Below, one piece after another: positions 30,162 to 34,517 of a stretch of 64,000 bases of DNA. The DNA is from Croceimicrobium hydrocarbonivorans (GTDB lineage: Bacteria; Bacteroidota; Bacteroidia; Flavobacteriales; Schleiferiaceae), in the NCBI RefSeq assembly GCF_014524565.1, contig NZ_CP060139.1, positions 1,185,501 through 1,249,500 on the forward strand, given 5' to 3'. Position 1 is the first letter of the stretch; the number at the start of each line of letters is the position of its first letter. The notes beneath the pieces are model-generated. The model did no database searches and was not told the DNA's origin. It worked only from the letters and a program-made list of their open reading frames with translations. The position numbers and the translations under genes were made by a program.

Positions 30162-30563
30162 CTAAAAATAATAGACCAACAAACCTTGCCTAAGCTGCGA
30201 CTTAGAGCCATAAGTAAGCAATCTACCAACAGCGTAACAGCCAGCGGCGATCCCTCCGTAAACTAAAAAAACTTGGCCTGCAAATTCAGCATCCCTGATT
30301 ATTGCCAAGCCAAAAACAGCTGTACCTGCGCTCGCAATTGCGGCTGAATAAAACGGATAACTAATGATTGTATAAACTTGGGATCGGTTTGCAAATCTTT
30401 TTAAGTCCGGCTTAGCATCTTGATTCCTCAGAAAAGCTCGTATTTCAGAGCTGGTATACAGCTTAAGATCAGTATCAACCTGTCCACTGGGCCGATATTG
30501 GGCAGACATCGTGAAACTGAACAAACTAAAAATCAATACAATAAAAAAGGGTACGGTTTTCAT
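30162..30563 (-). CDS. Unknown small membrane protein
   Basis: 133 residues. A signal peptide (FFIVLIFSLFSFTMSAQ) is followed by a polar stretch and two hydrophobic segments (VYTIISYPFYSAAIASAGTA and FAGQVFLVYGGIAAGCYAVG). No family recognised. It stands alone, about 150 bp from tsaE and 130 bp from the SCO1 gene. The signal peptide and good hydrophobic structure support it as real. Confidence 0.65.
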   Translation of the reverse strand: MKTVPFFIVLIFSLFSFTMSAQYRPSGQVDTDLKLYTSSEIRAFLRNQDAKPDLKRFANRSQVYTIISYPFYSAAIASAGTAVFGLAIIRDAEFAGQVFLVYGGIAAGCYAVGRLLTYGSKSQLRQGLLVYYF

Positions 30564-30696
30564 AGAAAAATGAATTATCAGGTTTTAAAGGCTAGAATAC
30601 ATAATTCTAATCGAAAAGTAATTTTGATTTACCCTAGATAAACGCAAACTGCTCTCGAGATCCTGATTATCCTTGGTTTCGGTAAGCTCCCCGCAA

Positions 30697-31341
30697 TTAG
30701 CCTTCCTGCTTAAGACTTTCTATATCAAGTATAAGTTGATTAACAGAACTGAGGTTTAATCCATTATAGATTCCGCGGATCCTGCGCTGCTTATCTACCA
30801 ACACAAAATTCTCCGTATGCAGGAAGTCATCACTGCTTTTTACGAGTCCTAAATCCTCCTCTACGAAATAACCTTTACGCCCCAAACTATAAATCAAATC
30901 GCGATCACCAGTAACCAAATGCCATTTGCCAGAAATCACCTGATGAGCCTGGGCATAGTCTTTCAAAACGCTAACCGAATCATAGTCTGGAGTGACGGAA
31001 TGAGAGAGCAATAACACTTCATTATCATCTAAGAATGCCTTCTGAAGTAAGGACATATTAGTGGTCATTTTAGGGCAAATACCCGGGCAAGAGGTAAAGA
31101 AAAAATCAGCGACATAGATCTTTCCCTCAAAGGTTTTCTCGTTAATGGAATCGCCTTCCTGATTAATAAGTTGGAAGGGAGGAATCTTATGAAAGTCCTT
31201 TAATTCAGTAGAATTGGGCTCTAGCCAATGCGGAGTAAAACTAGCCTCATTATAATAAGGCAGTTCCGAAATGCTGGCCACTTGCTCCTTCTCTCCAGTC
31301 TGACAAGATACCAATGCGAGGGACAGGCAAAAAATAGCCAT
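30697..31341 (-). CDS. SCO1/SenC family lipoprotein
   Basis: 214 residues from the ATG at 31341, which begins a lipoprotein signal (AIFCLSLALVSC). The thioredoxin fold carries the copper/redox motif TSCPGICPKM and the distal His in FLHTENFVLVD, the three ligands of Sco proteins. Family members deliver copper to the CuA site of cytochrome oxidase or reduce it. It lies seven bases after the MORN-like lipoprotein and is third in an operon with a YHYH protein. A longer frame upstream would run through the neighbour and is rejected. Confidence 0.88.
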   Translation of the reverse strand: MAIFCLSLALVSCQTGEKEQVASISELPYYNEASFTPHWLEPNSTELKDFHKIPPFQLINQEGDSINEKTFEGKIYVADFFFTSCPGICPKMTTNMSLLQKAFLDDNEVLLLSHSVTPDYDSVSVLKDYAQAHQVISGKWHLVTGDRDLIYSLGRKGYFVEEDLGLVKSSDDFLHTENFVLVDKQRRIRGIYNGLNLSSVNQLILDIESLKQEG

Positions 31342-31348
31342 GCCATGC

Positions 31349-31948
31349 CTAAAACTCCAGTCCTTCCTCTTCCAATTGAAAACAGAGCTTAGAGCGTTTA
31401 AGTCCGTAAATACGGCCATCCTTAACTTCATAGTTATTAAATAATTTTCCGTTTTCTCGCCAAGATTGTTGCAAGCCACTTTCTTTACCCATTGCGAGCT
31501 GTAGCTTCTTAAATAAAAGCCCGGATTTATAATATTGTAGCTGCTCTCCATCTGGCACCCCCTCCTTAAAATTAGAAAGGGTTCGGAGCTTTCCATTGCG
31601 CCACCAGCTTCGCGATTCACCACTTAATTTTCCCTCTACATAATTGGCCTCATAACTTAGGCTTGCATTGGCAAACCATTTACGATAGAGCCCATGTTTC
31701 TTCCCTTGAGAATATTCAATTGAGCTGGCCCGACTTCCATCTGGATAGCGAGAAATCCCGGTTCCCGTAAATGGCAATCCTCTATAAAAAACCTCTCCGC
31801 TAAGCCTATTCAAAATCAAGGAGTCGCTTGACACGATAATAGCATCATCCAAAACTCTAGACTCTGTCAATTGAAGCGGCTCAGCCTTGAAGTTACAAGC
31901 GACTACAATGAGCCCTAGAAGTAGGCTATAAAACTTATTGAATCGCAT
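31349..31948 (-). CDS. MORN-like repeat lipoprotein (YwqK-type)
   Basis: 199 residues from the ATG at 31948, with a lipoprotein signal (FYSLLLGLIVVAC). At least four MORN-like repeats follow (GTGISRYPDGSRASS, HGLYRKWFANASLSYEAN, SGESRSWWRNGKLRTLSN, GLQQSWRENGKLFNN). Such proteins are often labelled YwqK-family antitoxin, but no toxin is present and the signal peptide makes that role unlikely. The start lies 14 bases inside the YHYH gene, so it is coupled to it. Confidence 0.85.
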   Translation of the reverse strand: MRFNKFYSLLLGLIVVACNFKAEPLQLTESRVLDDAIIVSSDSLILNRLSGEVFYRGLPFTGTGISRYPDGSRASSIEYSQGKKHGLYRKWFANASLSYEANYVEGKLSGESRSWWRNGKLRTLSNFKEGVPDGEQLQYYKSGLLFKKLQLAMGKESGLQQSWRENGKLFNNYEVKDGRIYGLKRSKLCFQLEEEGLEF

Positions 31949-32756
31949 TAGGTGTTCCCTGATAATCCCCGGGGAAGATGATATAATACTCTCCCAGATA
32001 AGCAGAATTTTGAATGTGATAATGGTATTCGCCTTCACTATTATGCTGGGTTACTGAAGTATGTCCGCCAGAAGCATCCAAATCTGTTGGATAGGTACCG
32101 GTAGAATGACATTTTCTTCCGTAAATGAAAAAGCCGTCTGCAATAATTCCTAGCAAAGCATCGTCGTCATCGCTCCATGCTTTTGGCTCCAAATGGTAAT
32201 GGTAACTCTGCGGTCCGGTGTGGGCTGCAGTATAATCCAAGGAAACCACAGCATCATTCAAGGGAACATTAGGCCCTTCTTCATCATTGTAAATCATGGA
32301 ACCACTGACTGCCATTCCTATGGCTCCCAATCCGGTTGAAGTGCTGCTGCTAGCAATACTGGGATTAGCAGGAACTCGCAGAGTATAGCTCCCATTAAAA
32401 TCATCAATATTCCCTGGGGCCATATCTTGATAGCTAGTCACCGTAGGCTCCACAAATAAAGGATGATTAACGGATGCCGCAGGGGTAGTTAAGGTATTTC
32501 CCATGGGATCAGTTGCGGTTCTAGCGGTGGTATTTGACCAATAGGGTGAAGTATGATTGGGCAATCCATTTGATTCCAGCACTACCTCAGATCCATCTAG
32601 ATAAATTGTGAAGTTATCCGAATCGAACTCCGAAAAAGCAGCGTGTAGGCTGGAGTTGTTTTGGTTGGAAGTATTTGAGTTGTCAGTGTCGCTCTCCTTA
32701 TTACAAGCAGATATCAGCAGTGCTGAACATAAAACGCTTAATGCTTTTCTTTTCAT
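31935..32756 (-). CDS. YHYH domain lipoprotein
   Basis: 273 residues. A lipoprotein signal (ALSVLCSALLISAC) and a Ser/Asn/Asp-rich linker precede the YHYH domain. Its marks are the two motifs SYHYHLEPKAW and GEYHYHI, plus DGFFIYG and LDASGGHTS. The His/Tyr clusters suggest metal binding. The family is uncharacterised as far as I know. It is the first gene of an operon with a MORN-like and a SCO1 lipoprotein, so all three would sit on the same side of the envelope. Confidence 0.88.
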   Translation of the reverse strand: MKRKALSVLCSALLISACNKESDTDNSNTSNQNNSSLHAAFSEFDSDNFTIYLDGSEVVLESNGLPNHTSPYWSNTTARTATDPMGNTLTTPAASVNHPLFVEPTVTSYQDMAPGNIDDFNGSYTLRVPANPSIASSSTSTGLGAIGMAVSGSMIYNDEEGPNVPLNDAVVSLDYTAAHTGPQSYHYHLEPKAWSDDDDALLGIIADGFFIYGRKCHSTGTYPTDLDASGGHTSVTQHNSEGEYHYHIQNSAYLGEYYIIFPGDYQGTPNAIQ

Positions 32757-32890
32757 AAGTATAAATCATTAGTACCTCTTGTAGACTTAGGAAGTCGAGG
32801 ATAGTTTAATTTGAAAAGAAAAATATTTTTTGCCTCCGCCTCAAATACCTGTTTTAATGAACATTAAAATGCTTGCAAACTCCATTGAAA

Positions 32891-32940
32891 ACAAAAAAAG
32901 GTCAGAAACAATCGACGGATAATCGAATGTTTCTGACCTT
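32891..32940 (-). terminator. Intrinsic terminator of porX
   Basis: 12-bp perfect arms (32898-32909 with 32929-32940, AAGGTCAGAAAC) enclose a 19-base loop. On the minus strand a run of seven T follows. It lies 18 bases beyond the porX stop. Confidence 0.85.
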
Positions 32941-32957
32941 CTAATTCAAATATTTAC

Positions 32958-34517
32958 TTAGGATTTTGGGCTTAGATTTACGAAGGGTATTATCATCTCC
33001 TCTAAGCTCACCCCTCCATGTTGATAGGTGTTCCGATAGTACTTCACATAGTGATTGAAGTTATTGGGATAGGCGAAAAACAAATCTTCCTTAGCAAAGA
33101 TGTAAGCGCTATTGATATTTTGCTTGGGCAGATGCACTGCCTCCGGAACTTTAATCTCCAAAACATCCTTCCCTTGATAACTCATACCGCGACCACTCTT
33201 GTAGCGCAAATTGGTATTGAGACTACGATCGCCCACCACCTTAGTTGGATCTACCACATTAATAGTTCCATGATCTGTAGTTAAAAGCACGGGAATCTTC
33301 TTTTCACTTAATTGGCGCAGCATATCCAGAAGAGGTGAATTGCGAAACCAGCTCAAGGTTAAAGATCGATAGGCTTTATCATTATCCGCTAATTCGCGAA
33401 TCACCTTCATATCGGTTTTAGCATGGCTGAGCATATCCACAAAATTGTAGACAATAACATTCACCTCATTTTTCAGTAAATTATTGAGGTTCTCCGAGAG
33501 CTTCTTACCGTAATTATGATTGGTTACTTTCTCATAGCCCATGCTGCGGCTGCCAAAGCCTAAGCGCTTGAGATTATCCGCAAAAAAGTCGGCCTCATAA
33601 TTATTCTTACCCTCATCATCCTCATTGTCTTCCACCCATTTATCGGGGAAGCGTTTCTTGATCTCCGCTGGCATTAATCCTGCGAAAAGGGAATTTCGAG
33701 CAAATTGAGTGGCAGAAGGTAAGATGCTCCAATAGGTACGATCTTCTTCTATACTAAAGTACTTTTCAATCTCGGGCTGAATCACCTTCCATTGATCGTA
33801 ACGAAGGTTATCAATCACCACCAGGAAAAAGGGTTGATCCTTATCCAAACTTGGGCGCACCCAGTTTTGCACCAGGGTATGACTCATTATGGGCGCATCC
33901 TCTGGATAGGCGAACCAATCTTCGTAATTGTTTTGTACAAAGCGGAAGAATTGGGCATTGGCCTCACTCTTTTGAGAACGTAAAATTTCATTCAGGCTCT
34001 CATCCTCAAGTTTATCCAATTCCAGTTCCCAATAAGTTAAGCGCTTAAAAAGCTGTTCCCAACCTTCGATATCGCGCACCATGGATAGGTCCATCGCCAA
34101 TTGACGAAACTCCTGCTGGTAATTGCTGGTGGTTTTCTCATTCACCAGGCGGCGGTTTTCCAAATGCTTTTTAAGCGTTAACAGAATTTGATTGGGATTT
34201 ACCGGCTTGATCAGATAATCGCTGATCTGCGAACCAATCGCATCTTCCATAATGCTCTCCTCCTCGCTCTTCGTGATCATCACCACCGGCAGAGTTGAGA
34301 ACTTTTCTTTGATATGTTGTAAAGTTTCCAGGCCATCCATACCTGGCATATTCTCATCCAGAAAGACCATTTGGTAGCGTTTTTCCTGCACCATATCCAG
34401 TGCATCGGAGCCATTATTGGCTGTGTCTACCTGGTAACCTTTGGCTTCCAGAAATAATATATGAGGTTTCAGAAGATCTATCTCGTCATCAACCCAAAGG
34501 ATTTGAATATTGTCCAT
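32958..34517 (-). CDS. porX: PorX: response regulator with PglZ/alkaline-phosphatase-like domain
   Basis: 519 residues from the ATG at 34517 (MDNIQILWVDDEIDLL). The N-terminal receiver has DDE at 10-12 and phosphoacceptor Asp 54 (MVFLDENMPG). A helical linker leads to a PglZ-type alkaline-phosphatase-superfamily domain (VVIDNLRYDQW, LLTTDHGTINV, YQHGGVSLEEMIIPF). In Porphyromonas and Flavobacterium PorX works with the kinase PorY and sigma factor SigP to control T9SS genes. That fits the T9SS cargo at the left end of this window. A start at 34664 would run far upstream and lacks similarity. Confidence 0.93.
   Translation of the reverse strand: MDNIQILWVDDEIDLLKPHILFLEAKGYQVDTANNGSDALDMVQEKRYQMVFLDENMPGMDGLETLQHIKEKFSTLPVVMITKSEEESIMEDAIGSQISDYLIKPVNPNQILLTLKKHLENRRLVNEKTTSNYQQEFRQLAMDLSMVRDIEGWEQLFKRLTYWELELDKLEDESLNEILRSQKSEANAQFFRFVQNNYEDWFAYPEDAPIMSHTLVQNWVRPSLDKDQPFFLVVIDNLRYDQWKVIQPEIEKYFSIEEDRTYWSILPSATQFARNSLFAGLMPAEIKKRFPDKWVEDNEDDEGKNNYEADFFADNLKRLGFGSRSMGYEKVTNHNYGKKLSENLNNLLKNEVNVIVYNFVDMLSHAKTDMKVIRELADNDKAYRSLTLSWFRNSPLLDMLRQLSEKKIPVLLTTDHGTINVVDPTKVVGDRSLNTNLRYKSGRGMSYQGKDVLEIKVPEAVHLPKQNINSAYIFAKEDLFFAYPNNFNHYVKYYRNTYQHGGVSLEEMIIPFVNLSPKS

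Follow-up and report, generated by a model that had tools for sequence, protein, structure and literature searches.

Proteins of the SCO1/SenC family hold copper with the two cysteines of a CxxxC motif and a distant histidine, and the task for which they are best known is the assembly of cytochrome oxidase (available part of PMC7558416). Thiol reductase activity has been reported for some bacterial members, and none for the SCO protein of Streptomyces, whose sco operon includes a PCuAC-like gene (excerpts of PMC3603459). The histidine-rich YHYH family (PF14240) is little studied: a survey of jumbo phages predicted its domain to be a zinc-dependent hydrolase with a histidine triad and an aspartate as zinc site (accessible sections of PMC7824862), the family has been named in diatoms (excerpts of PMC11992049), and the name is found for phage and giant-virus proteins in the Foldseek listing of predicted viral proteins. 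As a described case of metal-dependent sigma factor control, binding of metal by CnrX releases the sigma factor CnrH in the CnrYXH system of Cupriavidus, the metals being cobalt and nickel and not copper (accessible part of PMC7689651). Finally, surface lipoproteins of the Bacteroidota have an export signal which is acidic and follows the lipidated cysteine (excerpts of PMC5080379).

The locus considered here lies in the window, i.e. the whole stretch of 64,000 nucleotides of Croceimicrobium hydrocarbonivorans DNA that was analysed, where the sequence and its list of open reading frames show three consecutive genes, all on the minus strand. The first codes for a YHYH lipoprotein of 273 aa (31935-32756) which belongs to the short type of PF14240 and contains two YHYH motifs, the second for a MORN_2-repeat lipoprotein of 199 aa (31349-31948) and the third for an SCO1/SenC lipoprotein (30697-31341, with a possible upstream start at 31419). 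The YHYH and MORN genes overlap by 14 nt; a start of the SCO gene at ATG 31341 lies 7 nt past the MORN stop, and a start at ATG 31419 gives an overlap of 71 nt with MORN. Since the window has no ATG, GTG or TTG at the position that matches the SCO start of the relatives, one of these two has to serve. The corresponding profile matches in the relatives overlap or directly adjoin one another in 63 of 74 MORN/SCO pairs and in 46 of 81 YHYH/MORN pairs. All three proteins score above the Pfam cut-offs, with 51.4 bits against 25 for YHYH (best stretch at profile positions 2-114 of 193), 36.1 against 29.6 for MORN_2 and 89.4 against 22.8 for SCO1-SenC. On inspection by eye, each protein shows a lipobox (LLISAC in YHYH, LIVVAC in MORN and LALVSC in SCO), the last being weak if the start is at 31341. 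Coordinates, Pfam scores and lipoboxes thus bear out the sequence-only reading of this stretch, which had described successive, overlapping or nearly touching genes for YHYH, MORN-like and SCO1 lipoproteins.

Upstream of the trio, an inverted repeat at 32898-32940 (18 nt, 94% complementary, assigned to neither strand) separates it from the next gene and is perhaps the terminator of that gene, in which case the trio would be a transcription unit of its own; the terminator scan listed no terminator for this repeat. In the expected promoter region (32757-32897, minus strand) there is one sigma-70-like match with 9 of 12 positions at 32785-32758, which by itself is no evidence, as the scan of 30560-33000 gave 12 such matches with 6.0 expected. 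A Bacteroidota-type promoter motif was found 37 times in the window against 55.65 expected and at no place between YHYH and the next gene. With the match counts of both motif scans unconvincing, no promoter is claimed. Downstream of SCO follows a gene for a secreted-looking protein of 133 aa (30162-30563, minus strand), which has no counterpart at the same position in the sister genome G014 (L043).

Relatives were collected by a pattern scan with two peptides in a collection of one genome per species (84,980 species), which yielded 163 confirmed relatives; the best 80 of these were used as loci, a sample which leans to close kin. Within these best 80 of 163, MORN follows YHYH in all 80 (gap of at most 310 nt) and SCO follows MORN in 74 (gap of at most 357 nt). 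Of the six loci without SCO, two are truncated at a contig end (L071, L091) and four are truly without it (L090, L092, L100, L114), which counts against the unit proposed below; the order of the trio is intact in 74 of the 78 loci not cut by a contig end. The grouping therefore survived the adjacency check that had been set for it beforehand, with MORN in 80 of 80 and SCO in 74 of 78 evaluable loci. Apart from the trio and the sigma/sensor cassette described below, the commonest neighbour family occurs in only 19 of the 80 loci; since neighbours recur far less often, the trio stays together amid changing surroundings, as it does in many Bacteroidota, and its arrangement is far beyond chance.

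In a survey of 88 genomes of the family, to which three of the 80 loci apparently belong as well (L051, L056, L124), YHYH orthologues were found in seven genomes. Six of these contain a MORN orthologue (at least 43% identity over the whole length), in each case adjoining YHYH, and in the seventh (G026) the sequence ends at a contig end. The best MORN match in family genomes without YHYH reaches 30% over part of its length. Although some SCO protein is present in 85 of the 88 genomes, those at least 60% identical to that of the window occur only in the six genomes with YHYH and MORN, other SCO proteins being at most 49% identical among the matches listed. The matching SCO gene adjoins YHYH-MORN in five of the six; in G005 it is placed on another contig, which again counts against the unit proposed below. 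The co-occurrence of YHYH with SCO and MORN that had been put forward for tabulation is seen in this family, where matching MORN and SCO proteins are met only alongside YHYH.

A sample from the whole class comprised 197 genomes, 67 of them with PF14240, and 60 stretches taken from part of 95 listed places, leaving out the weak places G214 and G136:C3 as well as some strong ones. Trio-type YHYH was present in nine of the 60 stretches, with MORN adjoining in 9/9 and SCO in the 7/7 that do not run into a contig end; judged by profile score, five of the nine are remote, and they still keep the gene order. The other 51 stretches contain no SCO match and one weak MORN match (L178). The surroundings of 30 SCO matches from 40 class genomes served as a control and gave no trio-type YHYH and no MORN match, one of them (L213) showing a weak 30-bit match to the canonical YHYH profile.

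Several loci show variations of this layout. At L118:5370-9057 the first two genes are doubled (YHYH-MORN-YHYH-MORN-SCO). The trio is also found on contigs titled Thalassovita sp. (L127) and uncultured proteobacterium (L101), perhaps misbinned Bacteroidota. One protein family near the trio in 19 of the 80 loci has EF-hands in its example according to Pfam, and another in 10 of 80 (including L071:2015-4447) has a CotH kinase/lamin-tail/T9SS protein as example. In the Cellulophaga locus L064 (4788-6983), a small EF-hand protein and a divergent pair of histidine kinase and LytTR regulator precede the trio and replace the sigma cassette; L070, L074, L082, L099 and L106 resemble it by gene size and clustering. 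A mobile-element origin of the trio was considered and set aside, the search having given two distant plasmid matches (Persicobacter) and none in phages at E 1e-5.

We propose that the trio is a unit for handling copper, in which YHYH acts as a metal protein on the cell surface and MORN and SCO are located in the periplasm, a reading for and against which we see about equal chances. The three genes would form one operon for copper handling in the envelope, probably for scavenging or delivery rather than for oxidase assembly. YHYH would be an outer-membrane lipoprotein that is flipped to face the outside of the cell, and its invariant cluster of histidines and aspartate may bind a metal ion, most likely copper. 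SCO would serve this unit alone, as a copper chaperone (or thiol reductase) of the periplasm, and MORN would be its periplasmic partner, with the C-terminal cysteine serving as a copper ligand or as a thiol which SCO reduces or loads. We infer the copper binding of YHYH, its surface location, the direction of the copper flow and the contacts among the three proteins. The copper unit is suggested by the conserved order of the trio, the invariant residues of all three proteins, the co-occurrence within the family, the cassette found in 32 of the 80 loci, the kinship to YHYH proteins that associate with MbnP and MbnH homologues, and the export features.

As to the latter, the YHYH protein of the window has its lipobox cysteine at position 18, followed by acidic residues (CNKESD). 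At least two acidic residues at positions +2 to +6 were counted in 41 of 52 YHYH proteins against 7 of 53 MORN and 9 of 61 SCO proteins (Fisher p 5e-16, ignoring kinship). These counts cover the sequences in which the lipobox rule fired (52 of 80 for YHYH, 53 of 80 for MORN and 61 of 74 for SCO), and at least one call, L066, looks false; acidic starts may in general also belong to a low-complexity linker. Canonical YHYH proteins, in turn, have a T9SS tail in 38 of 43 cases, so that YHYH looks surface-bound by either route. These signals predict YHYH to be outside and MORN and SCO to be periplasmic, and the idea that the three lipoproteins share one face of the envelope is accordingly disfavoured at the level of prediction.

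MbnP is a copper-binding protein, as the name of its NCBIfam family indicates. The accessible part of PMC3621798, dating from 2013, called its link to copper unproven. Homologues of MbnP and of MauG/MbnH are regular neighbours of the canonical, longer YHYH genes, for which 43 loci were available, 40 of them with at least 3.5 kb upstream; a profile score of at least 560 defined the long type (23 loci). On the same strand, MauG/MbnH homologues are found upstream in 23 of the 40 loci and MbnP in 22; within the long type the figures are 22 and 21 of 23, with a sigma factor in 14 and the same kind of sensor as at the trio in 13. One example MbnP scores 131.7 bits against 27 in Pfam and 37.5 against 140 in NCBIfam, and one example of the MbnH family TIGR04039 scores 205 bits against a cut-off of 363; because the NCBIfam scores fall below the equivalog cut-offs, we name these proteins as homologues and not as proven equivalents. 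It is mainly this association that makes copper the preferred metal of YHYH. SCO (same strand, within 4.5 kb) and MORN were found upstream of none of the 40 canonical genes and, with SCO missing there, the evidence from MbnP/MbnH reaches the YHYH protein of the window by family kinship only. The comparison with the MbnP/MbnH pair therefore has two sides: canonical YHYH genes stand in operon-like rows with both and with a similar sigma/anti-sigma/sensor cassette, whereas the trio locus itself holds neither, the four MbnP matches of the window's genome lying elsewhere. At L137 the trio is located directly downstream of a canonical YHYH gene. The window's genome also has a second YHYH gene, of canonical type and with a lipoprotein-like start (G000:C1:2688542-2689162; L050:8516-9493), which adjoins a gene for a 191-aa protein that has no Pfam match and looks secreted and membrane-anchored; a similar-looking protein of 212 aa, also without Pfam match, is found near the trio in L088.

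Genes for an ECF sigma factor and for a small sensor lie as a pair upstream of the trio on the same strand in 32 of the 80 loci, in 20 of these within 300 nt of YHYH. Another 39 loci have at least 3 kb upstream without the pair, although in two of them (L095, L097) a sensor appears right at the end of the stretch; seven could not be judged and two have a sigma factor downstream. The sensor is small, has a membrane segment at its N-terminus and contains two histidines which are present in 21 of 21 aligned sequences, and in a wider set of 35 one of them is kept in 100% and the other in 94%. The small protein encoded between sigma factor and sensor, which has no Pfam match, is a putative anti-sigma factor by position alone. 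The row of ECF sigma factor, small putative anti-sigma factor and small membrane-segment protein with two invariant histidines resembles CnrYXH (available part of PMC7689651). It differs from CnrYXH in that three of five scanned sensors match Metal_resist, all below the cut-off (20.9 against 29.2 bits at best), and in that a sensor homologue was searched for and is absent from the window's genome and from its sister G014. The genome without sensor, the 39 loci without cassette, the cobalt and nickel of CnrX and the low Metal_resist scores all count against the copper unit.

The SCO protein of the window matches solved Sco proteins such as 4hde, and C114 and C118 of the CxxxC motif, H204 and H80 (P0003 numbering) are kept in 75 of 75 sequences; CxxxC and histidine are also found in the four divergent trio loci with SCO. 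In the MORN protein, Cys189 near the C-terminus, in a motif like G-R-x-x-G-L-K-R-x-x-L-C, is invariant in 80 of 80 sequences, a count which leaves out one incomplete sequence (L071), and it is kept in the five divergent trio loci as well. This suggests a part in chemistry for MORN beside the scaffold role that had been guessed for it. The trio might instead be an envelope thiol-redox unit, in which SCO keeps the MORN cysteine, and perhaps Cys216 of YHYH (present in 60 of 81 sequences, i.e. the 80 loci and the window), in the reduced state, and in which the cassette senses envelope stress and not metal. The invariant MORN cysteine and CxxxC motif fit this alternative, as do the sensor scores below the Metal_resist cut-off and the reductase activity of some bacterial SCO proteins, that of Streptomyces excepted (excerpts of PMC3603459), and the possibility that SCO is a thiol reductase weighs against the copper unit. 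However, the distal SCO histidine, a copper ligand in the SCO proteins studied, is kept in all 75 sequences, the eight invariant histidines of YHYH point to metal, and canonical YHYH sits with MbnP/MbnH homologues. We consider the thiol-redox alternative unlikely.

Those eight histidines, H68, H98, H179, H186, H188, H232, H245 and H247, are invariant together with D207 in 81 of 81 YHYH sequences (80 loci and the window). Five divergent trio YHYH proteins keep both YHYH motifs, H68 and H232 but not H98, which is a point against the copper unit. Once canonical proteins are included in a mixed alignment of 56 rows, only H179, H186, H188 and D207 of the nine remain invariant; by alignment, the trio YHYH proteins thus combine the three-histidine-plus-aspartate site of the family with a second set of histidines of their own. 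A first structural model based on 58 close relatives (mean pLDDT 71; best PDB match at E 0.64, best VIA Z 2.8) was discarded and replaced by an AlphaFold2 model of residues 37-273, made from a mixed alignment with canonical rows, which has a pLDDT of 92.5 and a pTM of 0.89. With this model, the best Foldseek match among predicted viral proteins is a cyanophage YHYH protein (E 1.2e-7, TMq 0.56). Against solved structures the best PDB match has an E of 1.7, which does not show a new fold; VIA-align found none of the 274 Foldseek candidates at Z of 2 or more, and a sequence search for a solved YHYH relative gave weak chance-level matches only.

The window's YHYH protein thus resembles the phage proteins of PMC7824862, as far as its accessible sections describe them, in Pfam family, three histidines plus aspartate and predicted fold. 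It differs from them as a short bacterial lipoprotein with two YHYH motifs, additional invariant histidines and no phage context. YHYH may accordingly be a surface metal-dependent hydrolase which SCO and MORN help to metallate or to anchor. The family-wide residues fit the predicted zinc site of the phage domain, a prediction that also tells against the copper unit, and the model matches phage YHYH proteins; that it matches no solved structure, hydrolase or other, is neutral in this respect. A copper chaperone would nevertheless be an odd constant neighbour for a zinc enzyme, and the second histidine set of the trio proteins is absent from the canonical ones. A hydrolase with two helpers seems to us quite improbable.

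The sequence-only reading had seen in the three genes a metal or oxidase-assembly unit, and its metal part holds up better: the conserved trio, the SCO ligands, the histidines and aspartate of YHYH, the cassette in 32 of 80 loci and the MbnP/MbnH kin describe a conserved metal-linked unit. A tree of 77 SCO rows was calculated, for which alternate trio loci (37 of 74) were taken together with the window, three additional trio loci, four divergent ones and 32 other sequences, among which L192 and L221 represent one and the same gene; the 45 trio SCO proteins form one clade with a support of 100/99. A different SCO gene of the window's genome sits among a UbiA-family prenyltransferase gene, by position probably a heme O synthase, two COX3 genes and one COX4 gene (L192), and no oxidase gene was seen on reading the trio neighbours in the window. 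Cytochrome oxidase assembly, with SCO loading CuA and YHYH and MORN helping, would be the family's best-known job (available part of PMC7558416) but is weakened by this other SCO among oxidase genes, by the separate clade and by the presence of trio YHYH in only 7 of 88 family genomes as compared to 85 with some SCO, and we regard it as very unlikely.

The copper unit shares with the sco operon of Streptomyces (excerpts of PMC3603459) the CxxxC motif with distal histidine, the lipid or membrane anchor and the placement in an operon with other predicted metal-handling proteins. In contrast to SCO1/SenC/PrrC and the sco operons described, its partners are YHYH and MORN lipoproteins, its SCO proteins form a separate clade and no oxidase genes lie beside it. 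Literature searches among open-access papers turned up no description of the trio, of its sigma cassette or of the parallel MbnP-MbnH-YHYH row, and the word YHYH is absent from PMC11213822 and from the accessible part of PMC3621798. Each of the protein families is known, and the trio probably represents an apparently undescribed form of copper-handling SCO operon.

A wider suggestion is possible, albeit doubtful: YHYH proteins may constitute a novel class of copper proteins at the cell surface, whose fold is perhaps unprecedented and which use two export routes (lipoprotein signal or T9SS) and two copper chemistries (SCO and MORN or MbnP and MbnH), often under one CnrX-like sigma switch, and the trio may be a surface-to-periplasm relay for copper acquisition in the Bacteroidota. 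If the copper unit is real, it would provide PF14240 with a function and a metal, and thus with a first role, and it would reveal a way in which copper may be acquired or managed at the surface of Bacteroidota cells.
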